From: Clostridium sp. C105KSO13
GTDB taxonomy: Bacteria; Bacillota; Clostridia; Lachnospirales; Lachnospiraceae
Length of the DNA: 64,000 nucleotides
Direction of reading: 5' to 3'
Assembly: GCF_001517425.1 (NCBI RefSeq)
Contig: NZ_FBWL01000168.1
Coordinates: 62,001 to 126,000 of the forward strand
Under the pieces are notes generated by a model. It was not told where the DNA came from. It did no database searches and saw only the letters and a list, made by a program, of their open reading frames with translations. Positions 51,695 to 64,000 of the stretch are shown in pieces (the stretch's first letter is position 1; every line of letters begins with the position of its first letter). Made by a program: the position numbers and the translations under genes.

Positions 51695-51730
51695 AACATG
51701 AAAACCCGGAGTATTGGGGGGAAGACCAAG

Positions 51731-52591
51731 ATGGATATGGTTCAGTCCGAAAAATTGGTTTATGAATATGAAAAGCGGGACGAAGAAGGAAATGTAATTG
51801 GTTTGAACCGGGCAGTTGACGGCGTAGATATCGATATTCCCGAAGGCAGCTTTGTTGCCATATTGGGGCATAACGGTTCTGGAAAATCCACTCTTGCCAA
51901 GCACATGAATGCAATTCTGGTTCCCACCGGTGGGACCATGTGGGTGGATGGCAGGGACACAAAAGATCCCATGGAACTCTGGAATGTCCGTCAGTTTGCC
52001 GGGATGGTTTTCCAGAATCCGGACAATCAGATTATAGGAACTGTGGTGGAAGAGGATGTGGGTTTTGGGCCGGAGAATTTAGGGGTTCCCACCCATGAGA
52101 TATGGAAACGAGTGGAGGAAAGCCTTAAGGCTGTCGGTATGCTGGCGTACCGTTCCAATTCACCAAATAAGCTTTCGGGGGGACAAAAGCAGCGGGTTGC
52201 CATAGCTGGTGTCATCGCTATGGAGCCGAAATGCATTGTATTGGATGAGCCTACGGCTATGCTGGACCCGAACGGAAGGAAAGAAGTAATCCGAACTGTG
52301 CAGGAACTGCGTAGACGCAAGAAGGTTACTGTAATCTTGATTACCCATTATATGGAAGAGGTGATCGATGCAGATCAGGTATACGTGATGGACAGCGGTC
52401 ATATTGTGATGCACGGAAGTCCAAGAGAAATATTCAGCCGTGTGGATGAGCTGAAAACTTACAGAATGGATGTCCCCCAGGTGACAATGCTGGCAGAAGA
52501 ACTCAAGAAAAGGGGACTTCAGCTCCCTGCCGGGATTTTAAGAACGGAGGAACTGGTGGAGGCGCTATGTCAATTAAACTCGAACACTTAA
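51731..52591 (+). CDS. ecfA1: Energy-coupling factor ATPase EcfA1
   Basis: First ATPase of the ECF vitamin/metal transporter core. 286 residues; Walker [11 protein letters not shown]-loop [21 protein letters not shown], signature LSGGQKQR, Walker [13 protein letters not shown] and H-loop ITHYMEE. The DNQI box in the Q-loop is typical of EcfA1. The ATG at 51731 is chosen because GGGGGGAAG lies upstream; an ATG 11 codons earlier is less likely. Overlaps ecfA2 by 25 bases. Confidence 0.92.
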
Positions 52592-53415
52592 ATTATATAT
52601 ACAGCCCCGGAACAGCCTATGAAAAGAAGGCGTTAAAAGACATCAATCTGGAGATACCCCAGGGAGAATTTGTAGGAATTATCGGACACACTGGTTCTGG
52701 AAAGTCTACCTTGATACAGCATTTCAACGGACTGTTAAAGGCATCCGGGGGTGCACTGTATTATAATGGAGAAAATATTTACCAGGAAGGATATAATATG
52801 AAGCAGCTGCGCAGCCAGGTAGGACTGGTGTTCCAGTATCCGGAGCACCAGCTTTTTGAGGTGGATGTGTTAAGCGATGTTCGTTTTGGACCGAAGAATC
52901 AGGGATTGCCCCAGGATGAATGTGAAAAGCGGGCAAGAGAAGCACTGGAACTGGTCGGCTTTCCCGAAAAGTATTACCGGCAGTCTCCCTTTGAACTGTC
53001 AGGGGGACAGAAGCGTCGTGCTGCCATCGCCGGTGTACTGGCTATGAGGCCCAATGTTCTCGTGCTGGATGAACCTACGGCGGGGCTGGATCCAAAAGGA
53101 CGGGATGATATTTTAAGTCAAGTGGAGCATCTCCACAAAAATACAAATATGACGGTAATTCTGGTGTCCCACAGTATGGAGGATATTGCCCGGTATGTGG
53201 ACCGTATTATTGTGATGAACCAGGGAGAAAAGATGTTTGACGGAAAGCCAAAAGAAGTGTTTTCTCACTACAGAGAATTGGAAAAAGTGGGTCTGGCAGC
53301 ACCACGGGTGACCTATATCATGCATGCTTTAAAGGCACGGGGCATGGACGTACGTACAGATGCGACAACAGTGGAAGAGGCTGCTAAAGAGATTATAAGG
53401 AGTTTCCATGATTAG
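52567..53415 (+). CDS. ecfA2: Energy-coupling factor ATPase EcfA2
   Basis: Second ATPase of the ECF core. 282 residues; Walker [11 protein letters not shown]-loop [21 protein letters not shown], signature LSGGQKRR, Walker [13 protein letters not shown] and H-loop VSHSMED. The YPEHQLFE box is typical of EcfA2. It overlaps both neighbours (ecfA1 by 25 bases and ecfT by 8), giving a tightly coupled operon. Confidence 0.93.
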
Positions 53416-54232
53416 AGATATTACCATCGGACAGTACTATCCGGCAAAAAGTGCGATTCACAGACTGGATCCAAGAGTAAAAATTATTTGTACTCTTTTA
53501 TTTTTAGTGTCCCTGTTTATCCAGAGAAGTATACTGGGATATGTAATTGCAACTTTGTTTCTGGGGATGGTAGTATATACAAGCAAGGTGCCGCTGAAAT
53601 TTATCCTGAAAGGGCTGAAACCTATCATTATGCTCCTCCTTATTACGGTCCTTTTTACACTTTTTTTGACAAGAGAAGGGGAAGAACTGTTTCATTTCTG
53701 GATTTTTCATATTACAGACAAAGGTTTGAGTACCACTGTCTATACGGCAATACGACTGATATATTTGATTATGGGCTCTTCTATTATGACCTTTACAACG
53801 ACACCAAATGCACTGACGGATGGCATAGAGAGTGTTCTGCATCCACTGAATAAATTGAAAGTGCCGGTCCATGAGGTAGCAATGATGATGTCTATTGCAT
53901 TGCGGTTCATTCCGATCCTGCTGGAGGAGACAGATAAGATCATGAAGGCTCAGATAGCAAGAGGGGCAGATTTGGAGAGTGGAAATATGATACAGAGGGT
54001 GAAAGCAATGATACCTGTTCTGGTACCTCTGTTTGTGTCGGCTTTTCGCAGAGCAAATGATCTTGCCCTGGCAATGGAAGCACGGTGTTATCGGGGCGGG
54101 GAAGGCAGAACGAAGATGAAACCGCTGGTATACCAGACAAAAGATTATCTGGCATATACGGCAACTATGCTGTATATGGTGTTGATATTTTTTGTCGGGC
54201 GGTTTGTGCCTTTCCATGTTTGGATATTTTAG
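53408..54232 (+). CDS. ecfT: Energy-coupling factor transmembrane protein EcfT
   Basis: Membrane linker of the ECF complex. 274 residues with about five helices; the opening IGQYYPAKSAIHRLDPRVKII is typical. The two coupling-helix Ala-Arg-Gly signatures are seen as AQIARGADLESG and AMEARCYRG. Substrate-binding S components are encoded elsewhere, since none is in the window; this makes it a shared (group II) core. Confidence 0.93.
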   Translation: MIRDITIGQYYPAKSAIHRLDPRVKIICTLLFLVSLFIQRSILGYVIATLFLGMVVYTSKVPLKFILKGLKPIIMLLLITVLFTLFLTREGEELFHFWIFHITDKGLSTTVYTAIRLIYLIMGSSIMTFTTTPNALTDGIESVLHPLNKLKVPVHEVAMMMSIALRFIPILLEETDKIMKAQIARGADLESGNMIQRVKAMIPVLVPLFVSAFRRANDLALAMEARCYRGGEGRTKMKPLVYQTKDYLAYTATMLYMVLIFFVGRFVPFHVWIF

Positions 54233-54976: not shown

Positions 54977-55004
54977 AAGAAATATTGTCAGGGAGGAAGA
55001 AAAT

Positions 55005-55742
55005 ATGAGAATTATAGAAGCGAAAGATTATAAAGACATGAGCAAAAAAGCAGCAGATGTTATCGGAGCTCAGATTATTTTAAAGCCCAACTGTGTTCTG
55101 GGGCTGGCAACTGGATCCACACCTATAGGTGCTTATGACTGCCTGGCTGAAAGATGTAAAAATGGGGAACTGGACTTTTCGGGAATATCTACCGTAAACT
55201 TAGATGAATACAAAGGTCTGGACAAGAAGAACAATCAGAGTTATTACTATTTTATGCATAAGCATTTGTTTGATCGTGTGAACATAGATGAGACACGCAC
55301 ACACCTGCCCAACGGCATGGAACCGGATTCTGCCAAAGAATGCAGAAGGTATGAGGATTTAATTGCATCTACGGGTGGAATAGATCTGCAGATCCTTGGT
55401 CTTGGTCACAATGGTCATATCGGTTTCAATGAGCCGGCCCAGGCTTTCTGCAAAGAAACCCAATGTGTGGACTTGACAGAGAGTACCATTGAAGCTAATA
55501 AACGTTTCTTCGCTTCTGCAGATGAGGTGCCCAGACAGGCGTATACTATGGGGATTAAGACAATCATGCAGGCAAGAAGGATTCTGCTGGTCGTGAGTGG
55601 AGAAGACAAGGCTGACATTGTTGCGAAAACATTGTCAGGTGATGTGACACCGGGAGTTCCCGCGTCCATTCTACAGATGCATCCAAATGTAATCGTGGTG
55701 GCAGATAAAGCCGCCTTGTCTAAAATAGCTGCCGCAATATAA
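55005..55742 (+). CDS. nagB: Glucosamine-6-phosphate deaminase
   Basis: Converts glucosamine-6-phosphate to fructose-6-phosphate and ammonia in amino-sugar catabolism. 245 residues from MRIIEAKDY. Motifs: LGLATGSTPIGAYDCL, STVNLDEYKGL with the catalytic Asp, LGLGHNGHIGFNEPA, and TMGIKTIMQARRI. The ATG at 55005 has GGGAGGAAG upstream; a longer frame would overlap truA. nagA is not adjacent. Confidence 0.93.
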   Translation: MRIIEAKDYKDMSKKAADVIGAQIILKPNCVLGLATGSTPIGAYDCLAERCKNGELDFSGISTVNLDEYKGLDKKNNQSYYYFMHKHLFDRVNIDETRTHLPNGMEPDSAKECRRYEDLIASTGGIDLQILGLGHNGHIGFNEPAQAFCKETQCVDLTESTIEANKRFFASADEVPRQAYTMGIKTIMQARRILLVVSGEDKADIVAKTLSGDVTPGVPASILQMHPNVIVVADKAALSKIAAAI

Positions 55743-55758
55743 AGTTTAGAAAAATTAA

Positions 55759-55779
55759 GGGAGCTGATTTTCAGCTCCC
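55759..55779 (-). terminator. Terminator of the HxlR-type gene
   Basis: GGGAGCTGA pairs with TCAGCTCCC across three bases; on the minus strand it is followed by TTAATTTTTC. It overlaps the regulator's stop. Confidence 0.75.
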
Positions 55780-56196
55780 AAGACTGCAGATTTCAAGTTT
55801 CTCTTCCGCTTCTTTACGTTCTTTTACTTCATCTCTAAAAAGATTAATGTAAGAAGCTCCAAATTCGTGCATCATTTCCATAATCGGCACAAGCTGTTTC
55901 CCCATTTCCGTAATTTCATATTCTACTTTCGGAGGGACTAAAGGATATGCATGGCGGGTAATTAAATGATCTTCTTCTAAGCTGCGCAGCTGCTTGGTAA
56001 GCATTTTCCGCGTGACACCAGGCATACGCCTTAAAAGTTCATTATAACGCAGGGTTTTATTGCTTAATAACCATAAAATCAGTATCTTCCATTTGCCCGA
56101 GAGCAGCTTTTGTACCAGAACCATTGGACATAAATCTTCCTTCAGACAGGTTTCTCTCATAAGGCAACCGTCATGTTTATCTGTATTTGCATCCAT
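55771..56196 (-). CDS. HxlR-family regulator next to the EET locus
   Basis: A 141-residue winged-helix regulator: CPMVLVQKLLSGKWKILILWLL, LRYNELLRRMPGVTRKMLTKQLRSLEEDHLI and PPKVEYEITEMGKQL are the HxlR hallmarks. Three cysteines lie at 11, 17 and 23 (CX5CX5C); C23, right before PM, is in the place of the redox-active Cys6 of YodB/CatR, which sense quinones and electrophiles. It is divergent from ndh2 with a palindrome GTATCC-TAAA-GGATAC between, so control of the EET operon and of itself is likely but unproven. Confidence 0.88.
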   Translation of the reverse strand: MDANTDKHDGCLMRETCLKEDLCPMVLVQKLLSGKWKILILWLLSNKTLRYNELLRRMPGVTRKMLTKQLRSLEEDHLITRHAYPLVPPKVEYEITEMGKQLVPIMEMMHEFGASYINLFRDEVKERKEAEEKLEICSLGS

Positions 56197-56251
56197 AAAT
56201 GTATCAACACCTTTCTGGATGAATATCTGTTGGCGTAGTGTATATAATAAG

Positions 56252-56267
56252 GTATCCTAAAGGATAC
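56252..56267. promoter_or_regulatory. Palindrome in the hxlR-ndh2 intergenic region
   Basis: GTATCCTAAAGGATAC, a perfect 6-4-6 palindrome 56 bases upstream of the HxlR-type start and just upstream of the proposed ndh2 promoter. Its size and place fit an operator. Confidence 0.6.
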
Positions 56268-56289
56268 TTAGGTACTATAAAGTGCCTGC

Positions 56290-56318
56290 TTGTAAATAAT
56301 TGGTTTATACTTTAATAT
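56290..56318 (+). promoter_or_regulatory. Probable promoter of the EET operon
   Basis: TTGTAA, 17 bases, TAATAT, about 180 bases before ndh2. The long 5' leader has no clear hairpin or riboswitch. Confidence 0.5.
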
Positions 56319-56498
56319 TAGATAAAAATGTAGTTTTTATAAGACTTGCTTATTATACAGGAAACAGGGCAGATTTGCAACTTTTCATTGTTAAGGAATT
56401 AACGCCTATTCCTGCTGCAAGCTATCTATTTTACTAATGTTTCATGTAGATAAAAAAGAATCTTGTTATCCGTTTACTTATGAACCAAGGAGAGAAAA

Positions 56499-58532
56499 AT
56501 GAAGAGATTAGTAATCATTGGGGCGGGCTATGCCGGTATTCTTACAGCGAAAAAGCTTGCTAAAAAAATTAAAAAGCAGAAAAAACAAGGGGATGTGGAG
56601 ATCACTATCATCGATAGAAATCCCTTCCACACTATGCTCACAGAATTGCACGAGGTTGCAGCGGGCAGAGTAGATGAGGACAGTATTAAAATCAGCTTAA
56701 GCAAAGTGTTCGCAGGCAGAAAAGTAAATGTTGTGCTGGATACTGTGGCGGATGTGGACTTTGAGGCCAAAGTTGTAAAAGGAGAAGATGCTTCGTACGA
56801 GTACGACTATCTGGTAATGGCAGCAGGTTCCCAGCCAACTACCTATGGGGTTCCAGGTGTAGACGAATATACCTTTAAGCTCTGGTCTTATGAAGACGCC
56901 GTTTTGCTCAAGGATCATATCTTAAATACGTTCCGTAGGGCGGCTGCTGAAAGAAATGAGAAAGAACGCAGAAGGATGCTTACATTTTACGTGGTAGGCG
57001 CAGGCTTTACCGGAGTAGAAATGGTGGGCGAGCTGGCAGAATATGTACCGATTCTCTGTGACAAATTTGAAATTGACAGAAAAGAAGTTACTATGGTCAA
57101 TGTGGATGGTCTGAGCAGGCCGGTTCCTAATATGCCTGAGAAGCAATCTGCGAAAATTGCAAGAAGGCTGAATAAGATGGGCGTTGAGCTCTGTATGAAT
57201 TCTTTTGTAACCCGGATTACCGAAGGTTCTATTGTATATAAGCACAATGATAAGGAAGAAGAAAGAAGTGTGGGCACAGTCATCTGGGTGGCGGGAATTC
57301 AGAGCTGCACTATAGCAGAAACAGCAGCAGATGCTTTGGAAAAACAAAGAGGCGGACGCATTCCGGTGGACAAGTATCTCCGCTCTACGAAAGACGAATC
57401 TGTTTACGTTGTCGGTGATAACATGTATTATGTTCCCGAGGGGGATACAGTATCTGTTCCCCAGATGGTGGAAAATGGTGAGCAGAGTGCCGATACGGCG
57501 GCCCACAATCTTACTGCCGCCGTGACCGGACAAGGTGAGATGGAAGAGTATAAGCCATCTTTCCACGGAGTAATGGTATGTGTCGGAGGGCGCTACGGAA
57601 CAGCACATGTGGGGTTTGGAAAGCATTTCTTTGGACTGCCGTCCTGGCTGGCTATGTTTGCCAAACATTTTATCAATATCATTTACTTTATTCAGGTGCT
57701 GGGATGGAATAAAGTATTTAGTTATATGAAGCATGAGTTCTTCACTGTGCGCAACTGCAGAAGCTTTGTAGGCGGACATTTTTCCAACAGAACTCCAAGC
57801 TTCCTTCTTGCACCACTAAGATTCTGGCTTGGTGCCGTGTGGCTGTTTGAAGGAATCATGAAGGTGGTAGAAGGCTGGTTTAGTAAACCAATGCTTAACG
57901 GGTTTTTTGGCGGTGCAAATTCCTGGTATGACAGTATACTAAGTACCGTCAGCAATACTGCCGCTGCGGCAGCAGATGCAGTAAGCTCTGCAACTGCGGC
58001 AGCATCAAATGTAACTGCAGCAGCAGATGCAGTAAGTTCGGCAACAGGCGCGGCAGGTGCAGCAGATGCAGCCGCTTCTGTGGGACATGTGATTTTCAAC
58101 TGGAACATTTTAGGACTATTCAAGATGATATTTGTCAGCGGAGCGGATCTTGCATCCTCAACTTTGAGTGACCTTGCCTTTAAACTGGATGTTCCGGTTA
58201 TGAACTGGTTTGTGAATAAATGTATTCTGCCAAATGACGGAGTACAAATGGCAATGCAAATCTTTATTGTAGTAATGGAAATTTTGATTGGACTTGCACT
58301 GATGGGCGGACTTCTCACATCTCCGGCAGCAGCCATGTCCCTGGTTTTACAGTTTATGTTTGTATGTACAACAGGCTTGTATCTGAACACTTTCTGGATG
58401 ATTTTCGCGGGAATTGCAGTATTGATCGGAGCGGGAAGAACATTTGGACTGGATTATTATGCCATGCCGGCGCTGAAGAAGTGGTGGAGAAAACTGCCCC
58501 TGATTCGAAAGTCATATCTGTACCACGATTAG
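56499..58532 (+). CDS. ndh2: Type II NADH dehydrogenase of extracellular electron transfer
   Basis: Membrane-linked flavoenzyme that passes electrons from NADH to quinone without proton pumping. 677 residues: FAD motif IIGAGYAGILTAKKLAKK, NAD motif VVGAGFTGVEMVGEL (about 165-180), VYVVGDN near 310, then about four membrane helices in a C-terminal DoxX-like part, which ordinary Ndh2 proteins of about 400 residues lack but EET-type Ndh2 has. Between helices (about 484-530) lies a low-complexity Ala-rich insert with a 17-residue tandem repeat containing ADAVSSAT. First gene of the EET locus. Confidence 0.9.
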   Translation: MKRLVIIGAGYAGILTAKKLAKKIKKQKKQGDVEITIIDRNPFHTMLTELHEVAAGRVDEDSIKISLSKVFAGRKVNVVLDTVADVDFEAKVVKGEDASYEYDYLVMAAGSQPTTYGVPGVDEYTFKLWSYEDAVLLKDHILNTFRRAAAERNEKERRRMLTFYVVGAGFTGVEMVGELAEYVPILCDKFEIDRKEVTMVNVDGLSRPVPNMPEKQSAKIARRLNKMGVELCMNSFVTRITEGSIVYKHNDKEEERSVGTVIWVAGIQSCTIAETAADALEKQRGGRIPVDKYLRSTKDESVYVVGDNMYYVPEGDTVSVPQMVENGEQSADTAAHNLTAAVTGQGEMEEYKPSFHGVMVCVGGRYGTAHVGFGKHFFGLPSWLAMFAKHFINIIYFIQVLGWNKVFSYMKHEFFTVRNCRSFVGGHFSNRTPSFLLAPLRFWLGAVWLFEGIMKVVEGWFSKPMLNGFFGGANSWYDSILSTVSNTAAAAADAVSSATAAASNVTAAADAVSSATGAAGAADAAASVGHVIFNWNILGLFKMIFVSGADLASSTLSDLAFKLDVPVMNWFVNKCILPNDGVQMAMQIFIVVMEILIGLALMGGLLTSPAAAMSLVLQFMFVCTTGLYLNTFWMIFAGIAVLIGAGRTFGLDYYAMPALKKWWRKLPLIRKSYLYHD

Positions 58533-58551
58533 AAAAGCTGTAGGTGAAAAA

Positions 58552-59517
58552 ATGGAGAAATTAACATATGAGGAGTCCTATGAGCTTGTAAAAGAAGAGA
58601 TTCAAAAGGCTCTTACCAAATCTCCCCGCATAATCAATAATTACCTGACGCATCTATCGGCCTCTCAGGGGAAGATGATTCGTGCAGTTTCAGTGCTGCT
58701 TTGTGCAGAGGATGAGGAAGGAAAGATTCATCCCGGCGCAGTCCACGCTGCGGCTGCAATTGAAATCATCCATCTGGCGTCCCTTGTCCATGATGATGTT
58801 ATTGACGATGCGGATTTGAGAAGAGGGAAGGAAACACTTCAGAAAAAATACGGAAAACGTACCGCGGTTATTTGTGGTGATTACTTGTTGAGTCTTGCAC
58901 TGAAAATGATTGCGGCAATTCCAAACCGAAAGGACTATGAAGATTATGCTGATATGAATCTGCCGGATTATATCAGCAGATTGTGTACAGGAGAGCTGCT
59001 GCAGCATATAAACAACAATAACCTGAACCTAACAGTCTTTGACTATATTAAAATTATATCGGGGAAGACAGCTGCACTTTTTGAGGCATCTTTTCTGGCA
59101 GGAGCCATTTTTGGCGGGTATTCAGCCGAGGAGATTAAAAAATACCGTAAGATTGGAAATTATGCCGGCTTAGTTTTCCAGATGCAGGATGACTGCCTGG
59201 ACTTTGATGAGACGATTGAACAGGCGAAAAAACCGGTACAGTCGGATTACGAGCAGGGTGTTATTACTCTTCCGTTGATACACGCATTAGGCCAGCTGCC
59301 TGATTTTAAAAGAAAAGCAGCCCAGGGGACTGTCTCCAGAGAGGACATTGATCGGGCAGTGGAGGAGTCCGGTGGTTTAGGTTTTACAAAGCATTTGATC
59401 GGACGATATTACAAAAAAGCTGAGCGCTGCATCGGCAGGCTGGATGCAACAGAAGAAAAACGTGCGAGACTTACTGCGATTTTGAACAAAGCTACCGGAA
59501 TGAAAATGGAACTATAG
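58552..59517 (+). CDS. dmkB: Polyprenyl diphosphate synthase (DmkB-like)
   Basis: Trans-prenyl diphosphate synthase of 321 residues. First Asp-rich motif LVHDDVIDDADLRRG and second FQMQDDCLDFDE are present, with GKMIRA near the N terminus. In EET loci the DmkB enzyme supplies the side chain of a dedicated demethylmenaquinone pool. Starts 19 bases after ndh2 and ends 16 bases before the UbiA-type gene. Chain length cannot be read from sequence alone. Confidence 0.88.
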   Translation: MEKLTYEESYELVKEEIQKALTKSPRIINNYLTHLSASQGKMIRAVSVLLCAEDEEGKIHPGAVHAAAAIEIIHLASLVHDDVIDDADLRRGKETLQKKYGKRTAVICGDYLLSLALKMIAAIPNRKDYEDYADMNLPDYISRLCTGELLQHINNNNLNLTVFDYIKIISGKTAALFEASFLAGAIFGGYSAEEIKKYRKIGNYAGLVFQMQDDCLDFDETIEQAKKPVQSDYEQGVITLPLIHALGQLPDFKRKAAQGTVSREDIDRAVEESGGLGFTKHLIGRYYKKAERCIGRLDATEEKRARLTAILNKATGMKMEL

Positions 59518-59533
59518 AGGGAGAATATGAGAG

Positions 59534-60445
59534 ATGCTTGCAAGGTTTTTTGACTATATAGAGATTAAGACAAAGATTACAAGTACGTTTACTTTTCTCC
59601 TGACCATAGGCTTCCTTTTGTATCAAAGGCAGGAAATACAGTGGGGAAAGACACTTATATTTTTTGCAGGGATGTTTCTTTTTGACCTGACGACTACTGC
59701 AATAAATAATTATATTGATACGAAAGATAATGAGCAGGTTCTTGCATTTGACAGAAGACAGGCACTTCTGATCATTTATGCCCTGTTCGGGATCAGCACT
59801 GCACTGGGCCTTTATCTTGCTTACCTTACAGATTTGGTTGTTTTGGCTGCCGGTGGTTTATGTTTTCTTTTTGGGGTTTTTTATACCTATGGGCCGCTGC
59901 CGATTTCCAGAATGCCGTTGGGAGAAGTGATGTCCGGTTTCTTTTATGGGATGATGATTCCGTTTATATTAATGTATATCAATACACCAGAAGGAACTTT
60001 TCTGACCTACAAACTGAGCTGGGAAACAATCTATCTGTCGGTGCAGGTTGTTCCGATTCTCACATTATTTCTTTTTGCAGTGATACCGTTTTCTGTAACG
60101 GCAAATATTATGCTGGCAAATAACATCTGTGATGTGGAAAAAGATGTTGCGGTGAGACGACATACGCTGCCTTATTATATAGGGAAAAAAGCGCTGCCTT
60201 TGTTTGCGGGACTTTACTATATAACCTATATTTCCACGATTCTGCTGGTAATATTTAAAATTTTGTCTCCGGTAACGCTGCTCGCAGTTTTAACGATTAT
60301 TCCGGTACAGAGAAATATCCGCATCTTCTGGAAAAAACAGGAGAAAAGCACAACGTTTAATATTAGTATTATTAATTTTATTTTAATTATGGGCGGGAAC
60401 GCCCTGGCAATATTTTTATCTGTGATTCTGGACAGATTTTTGTAA
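59534..60445 (+). CDS. dmkA: UbiA-type prenyltransferase (DmkA-like)
   Basis: Membrane prenyltransferase of 303 residues with about eight helices. The two Asp-rich sites are TTAINNYIDTKDNE (NxxxD-type, about 53-66) and NNICDVEKDVAVRRHTLP (about 196-213). It attaches a polyprenyl chain to 1,4-dihydroxy-2-naphthoate in the menaquinone branch; placed next to DmkB and Ndh2 it fits DmkA of EET loci. The menaquinone methyltransferase MenG is absent from the locus, as expected for demethylmenaquinone. Confidence 0.87.
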   Translation: MLARFFDYIEIKTKITSTFTFLLTIGFLLYQRQEIQWGKTLIFFAGMFLFDLTTTAINNYIDTKDNEQVLAFDRRQALLIIYALFGISTALGLYLAYLTDLVVLAAGGLCFLFGVFYTYGPLPISRMPLGEVMSGFFYGMMIPFILMYINTPEGTFLTYKLSWETIYLSVQVVPILTLFLFAVIPFSVTANIMLANNICDVEKDVAVRRHTLPYYIGKKALPLFAGLYYITYISTILLVIFKILSPVTLLAVLTIIPVQRNIRIFWKKQEKSTTFNISIINFILIMGGNALAIFLSVILDRFL

Positions 60446-60521
60446 CATTGTTTTCATCCGGGTAACCGGATTGAAATAGAAAAGAAACGGCCGCAGTGAC
60501 GGCGTAAAATGGAGGTACAAT

Positions 60522-61586
60522 ATGAAAAAAGCAGCAGCATTATTACTCTGTACGACCCTTGCCGCAGGAGCACTTACTGCTTGTGGAGGGAATAAGACAG
60601 AGACCACAAAGACAGAGGACAAAAAGACAGAAAGCACGAAGGAAGAAACCACGGATGCAGGAGAGGCAAAGACCGGGCTTGCAGTGATTACATCACTTGC
60701 TTCCTCAACATCTGCAGGCGAAGAAGATGGACTGGCACAGACAGATTCTACAGTAGTAGCTGTACTTGTCGATGCCGAAGGTAAAATTCTGGATTGTAAA
60801 ATTGATTCAGCCCAGACAAAAATCAACTTTACTAAAGAGGGCAAGCTTGCAACTGACACAGCAGCTGAGCTTAAGTCTAAACAGGAACTGGGGGCTGACT
60901 ATGGTCTGGGAAAAGCATCTTCCATTAAAAAGGAATGGAATGAACAGGCTGATGCATTTGCCGAATATGCAGTAGGAAAAACAGTAGACGAAATAAAAGG
61001 TGTTGCAGTGAATGAAGAAGGAGTGCCTGCAGATGAGGATTTGAAATCTTCTGTAACAATTCATGTAGGAGATTTTGTTGGCGGTATTGAGAAAGCAGCA
61101 GCAAATGCAAAAGCCTTAGGAGCAGGCAGCGCCGACAAACTTGGTCTGGGCGTTACGACTGAAATAGCAAACTCCACAGATGCAGCAGCTGATGAGGAAG
61201 GACTTGCAGAAGCCTATTCCATGTATTCTGCTGTTACAACTGATGCAGACGGCAAAATCACAAGCTGCTATGTGGATGCAACACAGGGTGATGTGAACTT
61301 TGATACAAAGGGTGTTATTACTTCCGATTTGAAGAAAGAGGTTAAAACAAAACAGGAGCTGGGGGATGGCTACGGCATGAAGAAAGCGTCTTCCATCGGC
61401 AAAGAGTGGTTTGAACAGGCAGATGCGTTTGCTGAGTATGCAAAAGGAAAGACAGCATCAGATGTCAGCAAAATCGCAGTCAGTGAGGAAGGCCTTGCTT
61501 CAGATGAAGACCTGATTTCTTCTGTAACGGTACACGTATCGCCATTTATAACTGTAGTTGAAAAAGCAGCAGAGAATGCAAAATAA
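60522..61586 (+). CDS. pplA: Flavinylated surface lipoprotein with two FMN-binding domains (PplA-like)
   Basis: Extracellular lipoprotein of 354 residues. The signal peptide ends LTAC, so Cys21 is lipidated; a Lys/Glu/Thr-rich linker (about 25-50) spans the wall. Two homologous domains follow (about 52-198 and 199-354), each with KQELG..YG..KASSI.KEW.EQADAFAEYA.GKT and ending in a DEDLxSSVTxHV box. By analogy with PplA, the Thr or Ser of that box is the site where an ApbE enzyme attaches FMN. It would receive electrons from the quinone pool and pass them outward. Confidence 0.88.
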   Translation: MKKAAALLLCTTLAAGALTACGGNKTETTKTEDKKTESTKEETTDAGEAKTGLAVITSLASSTSAGEEDGLAQTDSTVVAVLVDAEGKILDCKIDSAQTKINFTKEGKLATDTAAELKSKQELGADYGLGKASSIKKEWNEQADAFAEYAVGKTVDEIKGVAVNEEGVPADEDLKSSVTIHVGDFVGGIEKAAANAKALGAGSADKLGLGVTTEIANSTDAAADEEGLAEAYSMYSAVTTDADGKITSCYVDATQGDVNFDTKGVITSDLKKEVKTKQELGDGYGMKKASSIGKEWFEQADAFAEYAKGKTASDVSKIAVSEEGLASDEDLISSVTVHVSPFITVVEKAAENAK

Positions 61587-61608
61587 TAGTAAGAAACAGT
61601 GATATCCG

Positions 61609-61633
61609 TGGGATGCATTATTCATGCATCCCA
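61609..61633 (+). terminator. Hairpin between pplA and the ApbE gene
   Basis: GGGATGCA pairs with TGCATCCC, followed by ATTTCGTTT. A weak terminator that may raise the amount of lipoprotein relative to downstream genes. Confidence 0.6.
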
Positions 61634-61675
61634 TTTCGTTTAATACGGTTTTAAGCTGATTTTAGGGGAAGGCAC

Positions 61676-62737
61676 ATGAAGATAAGAAAACGAATAGCAG
61701 CATTTATAGTTGGTATTTTGACAGTATCGCTGCTGTCAGCTTGCAAAGCATCCGGCGAAAAAAGGTATGAGGCCAGTTTCCTGGAGCTTTTTGACACGGC
61801 CAGTGTAGTGGTCGGATATGCAAAAAATGAAGATGACTTTACAAAATATAGTCAGAAGGTTTATGATGAATTGAAAGAGTACAATGAGCTTTTTGATATT
61901 TATAATGATTATGACGGCATTAATAATATTAAAACAATCAACGATAATGCCGGAATAAGGCCTGTGAAGGTCGATAAGAAAATTACAGATCTTCTTTCTT
62001 TTTCGAGAGAAATGTTTGAGAAGACAGATGGAAAAGTAAATGTTGCTTTTGGAGCAGTACTTTCCCTGTGGCATAATCACCGGGAGGCAGGCTTAAATAA
62101 CCCGGAAAGGGCAGCTCTGCCGGATTATGAAGAACTAAAAAGGCGAAATGAGCATACTGACATTAAGGATATGATTATTGATGAAAATGCTTCTACTGTT
62201 TACTTACAAGATCCTAACATGAGTTTGGATGTGGGGGCGATAGCCAAAGGCTATGCTGTGGAAAAGGTTTCACAATTTATACAAAAAGAGGGGCTCAAAG
62301 ACGGAATGATATCCGTGGGCGGCAATGTAAGGACTTTCGGAGAGAAGTACGATGAAAGGGGAAAGCAGGTTCCCTGGACTGTTGGAATTCAAAATCCGGA
62401 TACATCCAGTGATAAGAAGTCGCTTTATGATTTGAGATTGTCAGGTTATTCCCTTGTAACCAGCGGCGTTTACGAGCGGTATTATATTGTGGACGGAAAA
62501 CGGTATCATCATATCATTGATCCGCAAACATTAATGCCTGCCGCATATTTCACATCGGTCTCTATCGTGTGCAAAAACTCAGGCATGGCAGATGCTCTTT
62601 CTACCGCAGTGTTTAATACATCATACAAAGAAGGAAGCAAGATGATAGAAGGAATGAAGGATGTGGAAGCACTGTGGGTGTTTCCGGATGGCACAATGAA
62701 ATACAGCGGTGGTTTCGAAAAGTGGTGTGATTTATGA
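61676..62737 (+). CDS. fmnB: FAD:protein FMN transferase (ApbE/FmnB-like lipoprotein)
   Basis: Transfers FMN from FAD onto Thr/Ser of target flavoproteins, here most likely PplA. 353 residues with lipobox LLSAC (Cys23), so it acts outside the membrane. ApbE signatures: MSLDVGAIAKGYAVEKV, MISVGGNVRTFG, HHIIDPQTLMPA and MADALSTAVF (metal-binding Asp). Its stop overlaps the start of eetA by 4 bases. Named by analogy with the Listeria FmnB. Confidence 0.9.
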   Translation: MKIRKRIAAFIVGILTVSLLSACKASGEKRYEASFLELFDTASVVVGYAKNEDDFTKYSQKVYDELKEYNELFDIYNDYDGINNIKTINDNAGIRPVKVDKKITDLLSFSREMFEKTDGKVNVAFGAVLSLWHNHREAGLNNPERAALPDYEELKRRNEHTDIKDMIIDENASTVYLQDPNMSLDVGAIAKGYAVEKVSQFIQKEGLKDGMISVGGNVRTFGEKYDERGKQVPWTVGIQNPDTSSDKKSLYDLRLSGYSLVTSGVYERYYIVDGKRYHHIIDPQTLMPAAYFTSVSIVCKNSGMADALSTAVFNTSYKEGSKMIEGMKDVEALWVFPDGTMKYSGGFEKWCDL

Positions 62738-63102
62738 TAAAGAAGAATGATTTGATACTGGCAGCAACTGTTCTTGTTATTGCCCTTGCGGCAATTCTGT
62801 TTATAACTTTAACCCGAAAAGATGGCGCAGAGGTCGTGGTGACTGTGAATGGAGAAGTGTATACGATCATGTCTCTCGATGAGGATACGACCCTGACGAT
62901 CGGCGAAGAGCCGGACGATTATAACGTGGTGGAGATTAAAAATGGAAAAGTAAGAATGTCAGAGGCAAACTGCCGGGATCAAATCTGTGTGAATCATAAG
63001 CCCATCCATTTCAATAATGAATCTATTGTGTGCCTGCCTCATAAAGTGACAGTGGAGATTCACGGCGGCGAAGAAAGCGATATTGATATAATGGCAAATT
63101 AG
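62734..63102 (+). CDS. eetA: EetA-like protein (NusG domain II)
   Basis: A 122-residue protein with one N-terminal helix (about 8-27), then an extracytoplasmic NusG-domain-II beta fold. The NCRDQICVNHKPIH segment with two Cys and the later CLPHKV are typical of this family. In EET loci EetA partners the membrane protein EetB; its exact role is unknown. ATGA overlap with fmnB. Confidence 0.86.
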   Translation: MIKKNDLILAATVLVIALAAILFITLTRKDGAEVVVTVNGEVYTIMSLDEDTTLTIGEEPDDYNVVEIKNGKVRMSEANCRDQICVNHKPIHFNNESIVCLPHKVTVEIHGGEESDIDIMAN

Positions 63103-63127
63103 ATGGTGCACTAAACAAGGAGAATCC

Positions 63128-63631
63128 ATGAAAACCAGAAATGTGGCAATGTACGGAATGCTGATTGCACTGGCATTCATTTTAAGTTATATAGAAAGTA
63201 TTATACCGATTCCTGTGCCTATTCCGGGAATTAAGATTGGGCTTGCAAATCTGGTTGTAGTCACTGCACTATTTTTGATGGGGCCCAGGCAGGCCTTTGT
63301 AATGTCCATGATTAGGATCTTTTTGGTGGGTTTCACATTCGGAAACCTGTCTACTATGATATTCAGCTTCGGGGGCGGCCTGCTCAGCTGGCTGGTTATG
63401 ACAATCGCAAAGAAATGGAATAAGTTCTCTGTGACAGGAGTAAGCATCCTGGGCGGTATCAGCCACAATGCAGGACAGATTCTGGTCGCTATGTGGGTAG
63501 TAAACAGTGGTGTCCTCATATACTATCTTCCATTCTTAGTCATTTCAGGGGTGGTTACAGGCGCGGTAATTGGAATTGCAGGAGGACTGATTATAAACAG
63601 TCTCAAGAAAATGGAGCTTTTTAAGCCTTGA
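63128..63631 (+). CDS. eetB: EetB-like integral membrane protein (Gx-transporter family)
   Basis: A 167-residue membrane protein with about five helices, belonging to the heptaprenyl-diphosphate-synthase-component-I / Gx transporter family. Typical are IPIPVPIPGIKIGLANLVVV and ARQAFVMSMIRIFLVGFTFGNLSTMIFSFGG-like sequence (GPRQAFVMSMIRI). In EET loci it is thought to move flavin or quinone-linked electrons across the membrane with EetA. Last gene of the locus, followed by an unrelated T-box leader. Confidence 0.86.
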   Translation: MKTRNVAMYGMLIALAFILSYIESIIPIPVPIPGIKIGLANLVVVTALFLMGPRQAFVMSMIRIFLVGFTFGNLSTMIFSFGGGLLSWLVMTIAKKWNKFSVTGVSILGGISHNAGQILVAMWVVNSGVLIYYLPFLVISGVVTGAVIGIAGGLIINSLKKMELFKP

Positions 63632-63669
63632 CAAATATCTTAAGATAGGATAAGATTGCAACAGATACG

Positions 63670-64000
63670 AAACAAGCAATGAAGAGAACAAGTAGTAACT
63701 AAATTGGAGAAAACAGAAAGTTGCCGGTGGATGAGAGGCGCATGATACAATCGGTTATGAATACATCTCAGAGCTTCGCACCCAACACAGTTTCATTTTG
63801 ATATGCAGATGAATTGCAAGTAGGCTGTGACGGATTGGTACACGTTATTGTACTGAGTGATTAAGCGGGAAAAGCTGCAGCTGCAGTTTGAAAGTCAGAT
63901 ACACTCATTGAGACAGATGATGCGAGTTATCTGTGAATAAAGGTGGTACCACGAGTTCTATGAGCCCTCGTCCTTTTGGATGAAGGGCTCATTTTGTATC
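63670..64000 (+). promoter_or_regulatory. T-box riboswitch leader
   Basis: Amino-acid-responsive leader that reads uncharged tRNA. It contains the T-box sequence AAGGTGGTACCACGAG (63939-63954) and a terminator, GAGCCCT (63962-63968) with AGGGCTC (63984-63990) and ATTTTG after it. Stem I includes TGAATACATCTCAGAG, where the specifier could be TAC (Tyr, 63762-63764) directly after GAA, or ATC (Ile). The gene it controls, probably an aminoacyl-tRNA synthetase, lies beyond the window. Confidence 0.9.

Follow-up and report, generated by a model that had tools for sequence, protein, structure and literature searches.

The seven genes at positions 56499-63631 of the window (the whole 64,000-nucleotide stretch of Clostridium sp. 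C105KSO13 DNA that we analysed) make up a clostridial variant of the flavin-based extracellular electron transfer (EET) locus, one in which the surface carrier and the attachment motifs are different and the NADH dehydrogenase Ndh2 is itself a candidate flavinylation substrate. We consider it quite likely that the transferase FmnB flavinylates the surface lipoprotein encoded here and, probably, Ndh2 as well. There are at least two sequence families of EET surface carrier, and their attachment motifs differ; surveys made with PplA or FMN_bind profiles, or with strict [ST]GA[ST], therefore miss clostridial EET systems. The initial annotation assigned these genes to a pathway that is right in kind; its description of the locus as complete and as matching that of Listeria needs correction.

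Gene content of the cluster

The genes ndh2, dmkB, dmkA, the lipoprotein gene, fmnB, eetA and eetB are indeed seven contiguous open reading frames on the plus strand, as had been annotated, with domains that Pfam identifies. The DNA belongs to a gut bacterium, a member of the Lachnospiraceae of Muricomes type; among named relatives in our collection the closest was Muricomes intestini DSM 29489, whose lipoprotein is 88% identical over its full length. The window lies in contig 167 of an assembly (3.2 Mb in 171 contigs) that is 98% complete, and the gene absences that we report come from profile searches of that assembly. The EET gene set was found again around dozens of clostridial homologues, so the cluster is no chance arrangement; loci of this kind are common in Clostridia. 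The gene order, with the quinone genes between ndh2 and the lipoprotein gene, had been remarked upon; we rejected the idea that it is unusual, because ndh2-dmkB-dmkA ahead of the lipoprotein gene is the normal order in clostridial loci.

Homology to Listeria and Enterococcus bears out the assignment to flavin-based EET. The ndh2, dmkA, dmkB, fmnB, eetA and eetB genes that mark a Listeria-type locus stand in a cluster here, and in blastp comparisons with the Listeria locus (L258) and that of Enterococcus Ndh2, FmnB, EetA, EetB and DmkB aligned with their Listeria counterparts, and DmkA with that of Enterococcus, at E values from 3e-13 to 1e-124. Identity to Listeria is 36% for Ndh2, 35% for DmkB, 32% for FmnB, 33% for EetB and, over 53 residues, 40% for EetA. 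The two loci share in addition the membrane C-terminus of Ndh2, a two-domain surface lipoprotein and the catalytic residues of FmnB; in the corresponding Ndh2 loop the Listeria protein has a motif of the [ST]GA[ST] kind (SGAS). The match to the Listeria set thus holds for Ndh2, DmkB, FmnB, EetA and EetB and fails for PplA and fmnA. With no Listeria-type PplA (neither NF041941 nor PF04205 matches), no fmnA in the operon and no DHNA genes detected, the locus is not complete in the Listeria sense. It differs from the Listeria locus also in its gene order, in the tandem DAVSSAT of Ndh2 and in a lipoprotein that lacks detectable PplA homology and has SSVT where the Listeria protein has SGAT.

The surface lipoprotein

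Judged by its sequence, the lipoprotein (60522..61586, plus strand; lipobox LTAC) is not PplA but an analogue of it with two FMN-bind2-like domains. The NCBI PplA model NF041941 (cut-off 325) did not match it; the reference PplAs of Listeria and Enterococcus score 436 and 492 bits with that model and are both matched by Pfam FMN_bind (1.8e-12 and 1.1e-12). When the lipoprotein was compared with these two PplAs by blastp, the signal peptide alone was aligned (E 0.08). Two clusters, L039 and L060, have the clostridial lipoprotein alongside a true relative of PplA whose sites read DAVSGAT, so the two are different genes and not orthologues. The lipoprotein family has at least 537 relatives and turned up in 40 of the 398 genomes sampled from the phylum.

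The double FMN domain of the initial annotation survives as two repeats of about 157 residues each, which none of the Pfam or NCBIfam profiles recognises as FMN-binding; PF04205 is also absent among the families listed for the lipoprotein's 68-member alignment. Kinship with FMN-bind domains is nevertheless supported by a structural match and by a bridging homologue. The AlphaFold model (pLDDT 90.5) has as its best structural match among the Foldseek candidates the FMN-bind protein 3o6u, a weak match (Z 6.2 over 115 residues, rmsd 3.8) that ranks above IscU-like structures (Z 5) and is suggestive of kinship, no proof of it; Foldseek alone gave no meaningful match (E > 0.05). The lipoprotein profile also picks up, weakly (E 6e-4), 2kzx, an NMR structure of FMN-bind-like type, and in that alignment the SSVT of the lipoprotein is paired with the ISGAT of 2kzx. 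The bridging homologue, L155, is a lachnospiraceal protein with two domains; PF04205 (6.8e-8) and the lipoprotein profile both find it, and where the lipoprotein has its candidate acceptor motifs L155 has DAVSGVS and DAISGVS. The lipoprotein is probably of the FMN-bind2 type of Huang et al. 2024 (PMC11334425), with which it shares a length of about 160 residues, paired copies, detection by BLAST and not by Pfam, and association with ApbE; that paper models an Erysipelotrichaceae protein by AlphaFold, and the likeness is one of description.

The 2kzx alignment and L155 place the canonical motif at SSVT, so FMN attachment is expected at Thr179 and Thr336. These residues end the acceptor-like sequences DLKSSVT (residues 173-179; 61038..61058, plus strand) and DLISSVT (residues 330-336; 61509..61529, plus strand), and every one of 111 homologues has Thr or Ser as the candidate acceptor of the first site, as has every one of the 109 with the second domain at the second site. 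An earlier candidate of ours, the invariant Ser of YGMxxxSxIGKEW (Ser133 and Ser290), was dropped when 2kzx and the bridging protein put SGAT on the later SSVT. The longer motif YGMxxxSxIGKEWxEQ (60900-60947 and 61371-61418) stands about 45 residues before the acceptor site, and its Tyr, Ser and Trp, invariant in both domains, possibly serve in flavin packing. In one relative of the lipoprotein (L024/L156, G033:C5) the conserved Ser motif is missing (YGMKAYGGSKYEW) and the first acceptor site reads TTAS; this relative nonetheless adjoins fmnB, eetA and eetB.

The consensus of the acceptor sites in 111 distinct homologues is [DE]-L-x-[SA]-S-V-T, and the published flavinylation motif is D-x-x-[ST]-G-A-[ST] (PMC12052999, PMC10722498). 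In a Klebsiella substrate, flavinylation falls by half with a Gly-to-Ala change and likewise with an Ala-to-Val change (PMC12052999); the SSVT sites depart from the consensus at both of these residues, a point against the preferred reading. We think it decidedly unlikely that the lipoprotein is not flavinylated, its family having lost the acceptor function and FmnB serving other substrates. That explanation would account for the occurrence of [ST]GA[ST] at none of 220 alignable sites, for the lack of a Pfam or NCBIfam FMN_bind match and for the PplA with SGAT sites that follows fmnB in L039 and L060. It sits poorly with an acceptor Thr/Ser that is invariant while its neighbours vary and with the position of fmnB, which adjoins the lipoprotein gene in most loci; moreover, the FmnB substrates that it would leave in this genome are Ndh2 and RnfG/RnfD, and the latter have an ApbE of their own alongside.

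The outer loop of Ndh2

The ndh2 gene (56499..58532, plus strand; Pyr_redox_2, 1.5e-37) encodes a protein in which a type II NADH dehydrogenase is joined to a membrane part of four helices. Its fold matches NDH-2 with a Z of 49.4 over 390 residues, the GxGxxG motifs for FAD and NAD(H) are present as GAGYAG and GAGFTG, and membrane helices are predicted at residues 437-457, 580-603, 607-624 and 629-644. The NDH-2 domain has to be on the cytosolic side, which should place the stretch from the first helix to the second outside, a topology that follows from the helix count. That stretch includes a presumed extracytosolic, Ala-rich loop (residues 471-528; 57909..58082, plus strand), predicted to be disordered at residues 485-527 (pLDDT < 50), in which the flavinylation-like DAVSSAT occurs twice: at residues 493-499 (57975..57995, plus strand) and at residues 510-516 (58026..58046, plus strand), with Thr499 and Thr516 as candidate acceptors. 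DAVSSAT fits the flavinylation motif at six of seven positions, Ser taking the place of Gly. Neither Ndh2 nor the lipoprotein, as read from their sequences, has the Gly of the established consensus at these sites, which counts against our preferred reading.

We took a census of this loop in 58 Ndh2 sequences. The pattern D..[ST][GSA]A[ST] occurs 95 times, in 49 of the 58 loops, against a mean of 1.4 and a maximum of 6 in shuffled loops; as the loops are low-complexity, related sequences, the counts are not independent and overstate the independent evidence. Shifted, reversed and swapped control patterns were at or below chance with a single exception, which gave 4 matches for 0.9 expected and stayed inside the shuffle maximum. 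A pattern-free look at every Asp in the loops found Ala at +5 in 87% of cases, Ser or Thr at +3 in 70% and Thr at +6 in 83%, compared with a Thr content of 13% in the loops overall. Motif copy number varies across clostridial EET loci, with seven tandem copies in one loop; differences between the copies of one loop lie mostly at silent sites (pS 0.53, pN 0.14). Five of the nine pattern-free loops have close forms (EAVSSAT, ETVTAAT, DAISTAT, DAVSNAT), and those of Listeria and Enterococcus have SGAS and TGAS.

Outside these Ndh2 sequences, in about 820,000 residues of open reading frames, a related pattern was found almost only in RnfG, RnfD, FMN_bind and PplA-type proteins, ten of them assigned by Pfam and the others by motif context and locus; one match fell in a reading frame without any domain, and some in further Ndh2 proteins. 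Natural RnfG proteins have Ser for Gly in their flavinylation motif (DAISSAT and DAITSAT, in L142 and L144) and three RnfD-type proteins have SSAT (DGVSSATPLA, in L124, L132 and L143), so this replacement does occur at sites that are expected to be flavinylated.

These features suggest that the Ndh2 of this operon is a candidate flavinylation substrate that would carry flavins on its outer face too. There is a rival to this reading in which the operon serves EET, the loop is simply a flexible Ala-rich linker, a structural repeat, and the lipoprotein alone is flavinylated. We rate that as a real possibility, somewhat short of an even chance: the loop is of low complexity, ranges from 34 to 129 residues and is predicted to be disordered, just 9 of the 58 loops have the strict consensus, and our search of open-licence papers found no report of Ndh2 flavinylation. 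A linker does not account for the exact Asp-to-Thr spacing, for the conservation of Ala515 and Thr516 (93% and 90% of the 58 sequences, among the most conserved loop columns), for a motif nearly exclusive to ApbE substrates with natural Rnf sites that have Ser for Gly, or for the SGAS and TGAS found in the Ndh2 loops of Listeria and Enterococcus, respectively. For flavinylated Ndh2 as a general feature, we regard the case as evenly poised: in clostridial, and perhaps all, flavin-based EET, Ndh2 itself may be flavinylated by an FmnB with a relaxed need for Gly; its disordered outer loop would have one to seven relaxed D-A-V-[ST]-[SAG]-A-T sites, and the covalent FMNs on this flexible tether would pass electrons from the membrane to the lipoprotein. 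To our knowledge, flavin-based EET has no settled account of the step from the membrane quinone or Ndh2 to the surface flavoprotein; a flavin-bearing Ndh2 loop would, if real, supply that step. Several covalent FMN sites in one extracytosolic chain, candidate sites in the case of Ndh2, are also a feature of the multi-flavinylated proteins of Meheust et al. 2021 (PMC8238504); there the FMN-bind domains are folded and stand in arrays, whereas the Ndh2 motifs lie in the disordered loop of a membrane dehydrogenase.

Flavin transfer and export

The ApbE-type flavin transferase encoded by fmnB (61676..62737, plus strand; PF02424, 1.1e-68) is a lipoprotein. Alignment to 7esa shows that it keeps the Thr-Ser, Glu, Arg, His and Asp of Listeria FmnB, in which the catalytic residues are Ser257, Glu261, Arg262, His273 and Asp301 (PMC8906456), and its motifs are TSGVYER, HHIID and ADALST. 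The eetA gene (62734..63102, plus strand) overlaps fmnB by 4 bases and encodes a NusG domain II protein (PF07009, NusG_II, 1.5e-31). It is followed by eetB (63128..63631, plus strand; PF07456, Hpre_diP_synt_I, 8.6e-43), whose product is an ECF-S-like FAD exporter subunit with six membrane helices; in Listeria, EetB is the FAD-exporting ECF-S subunit (PMC9973259).

The placement and lineage of eetAB are the unusual part of the locus. In many other clostridial EET loci eetAB stands between dmkA and the lipoprotein gene, and the EetB proteins of those loci form one clade. Here eetB stands downstream of fmnB, and its product groups with lachnospiraceal and other EetBs from genomes without the lipoprotein (support 100/99; the bootstrap has not settled). 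Several genomes with a related EetB have eetB within a few kilobases of rnfG. The arrangement looks like replacement by, or recruitment of, a resident exporter, a direction that we infer. The present genome also has an rnf locus elsewhere, with its own ApbE gene adjoining the rnf genes and an RnfG with the canonical DAISGAT, and EetB may supply FAD for Rnf flavinylation too, since our search of the genome found no other PF07456 protein.

No gene for the ECF-T protein FmnA was found in the operon or next to eetB on its 3' side. A housekeeping ECF module (ecfA, ecfA' and ecfT; 51698..54232, plus strand) is a candidate source: its EcfT (53408-54232; PF02361, 2.1e-48), encoded 2.3 kb upstream of the operon, shares 43% identity with Listeria FmnA (E 2e-73) and could serve in its place, although EcfT does not replace FmnA in export in Listeria (PMC9973259).

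Quinone supply, electron flow and regulation

The two quinone genes encode a polyprenyl diphosphate synthase with both DDxxD motifs (dmkB; 58552..59517, plus strand; PF00348, 3.6e-58) and a DHNA polyprenyltransferase of the UbiA family (dmkA; 59534..60445, plus strand; PF01040, 8.3e-20) with 38% identity to Enterococcus DmkA. In profile searches of the 98% complete assembly MenB had no match, and MenD and MqnC had relatives below the cut-off only. As these enzymes were not detected, the genome probably does not make DHNA and takes it from outside, which predicts cross-feeding of a quinone precursor. The EET of Lactiplantibacillus plantarum likewise relies on outside DHNA (PMC9888254, PMC10746273); that species is a lactic acid bacterium with a gene set of its own, while here a clostridial set and Rnf occur in one genome. 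The quinone step of our preferred reading is therefore dependent on the environment, which weighs against it.

Under the preferred reading, Ndh2 would oxidise cytosolic NADH and reduce a (demethyl)menaquinone; DmkB would make the side chain of this quinone, and DmkA would join it to DHNA brought in from outside. EetB would export FAD together with the housekeeping ECF-T, A and A' proteins, and FmnB would move FMN from FAD onto proteins outside the cell, namely both lipoprotein domains at [DE]LxSSVT and probably also the flexible outer loop of Ndh2, at Thr499 and Thr516. From the membrane, electrons would then travel by way of the Ndh2 loop, possibly flavin-bearing, to the lipoprotein with its two flavins, which would hand them to soluble acceptors (ferric iron, flavins or quinones, for example). 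The initial annotation's proposal that NADH electrons are discharged outside the cell is thus plausible, provided that DHNA comes from outside and that flavin is attached at non-canonical motifs.

Upstream of ndh2 and divergent from it lies a gene for an HxlR-family regulator (55771..56196, minus strand; PF01638, 1.2e-31), found at this position in three other genomes of the genus Muricomes and in other Lachnospiraceae. The intergenic region contains the palindrome GTATCCTAAAGGATAC (GTATCCT-AA-AGGATAC; 56252..56267), a candidate HxlR operator that does not vary among the four genus members searched, has related forms in loci L030 and L032 and is the sole site in the whole genome at one mismatch or fewer. 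The start that had been given for the locus, 56252, is the first base of this palindrome and not of ndh2. HxlR may regulate the EET operon. Regulators of this family are often sensors of quinones or of thiol stress, and one could suppose that the operon reduces no mineral or electrode and serves instead in redox balancing or quinone detoxification, with HxlR as its quinone or redox sensor. We consider this unlikely. It fits the divergent HxlR gene with its unique, genus-conserved palindrome, the failure to find DHNA pathway genes and the lack of a flavinylated extracellular reductase, RnfG being the sole PF04205 protein found in the genome; it leaves unexplained why quinone side-chain genes, a flavin exporter and a two-site lipoprotein are kept together over Clostridia.

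A terminator-like hairpin that matches the consensus lies in the gap between the lipoprotein gene and fmnB (61608..61634, plus strand) and would favour larger amounts of the lipoprotein than of the transferase. At the other end of the operon, a tyrosyl-tRNA synthetase-like gene is the next one 3' of eetB. An Rfam search of 55000-64000 gave nothing at gathering scores, the T-box-like leader of that gene included; the leader (AAGGTGGTACCACG) lies at 63640-64000, and the gene that it precedes starts outside the window.
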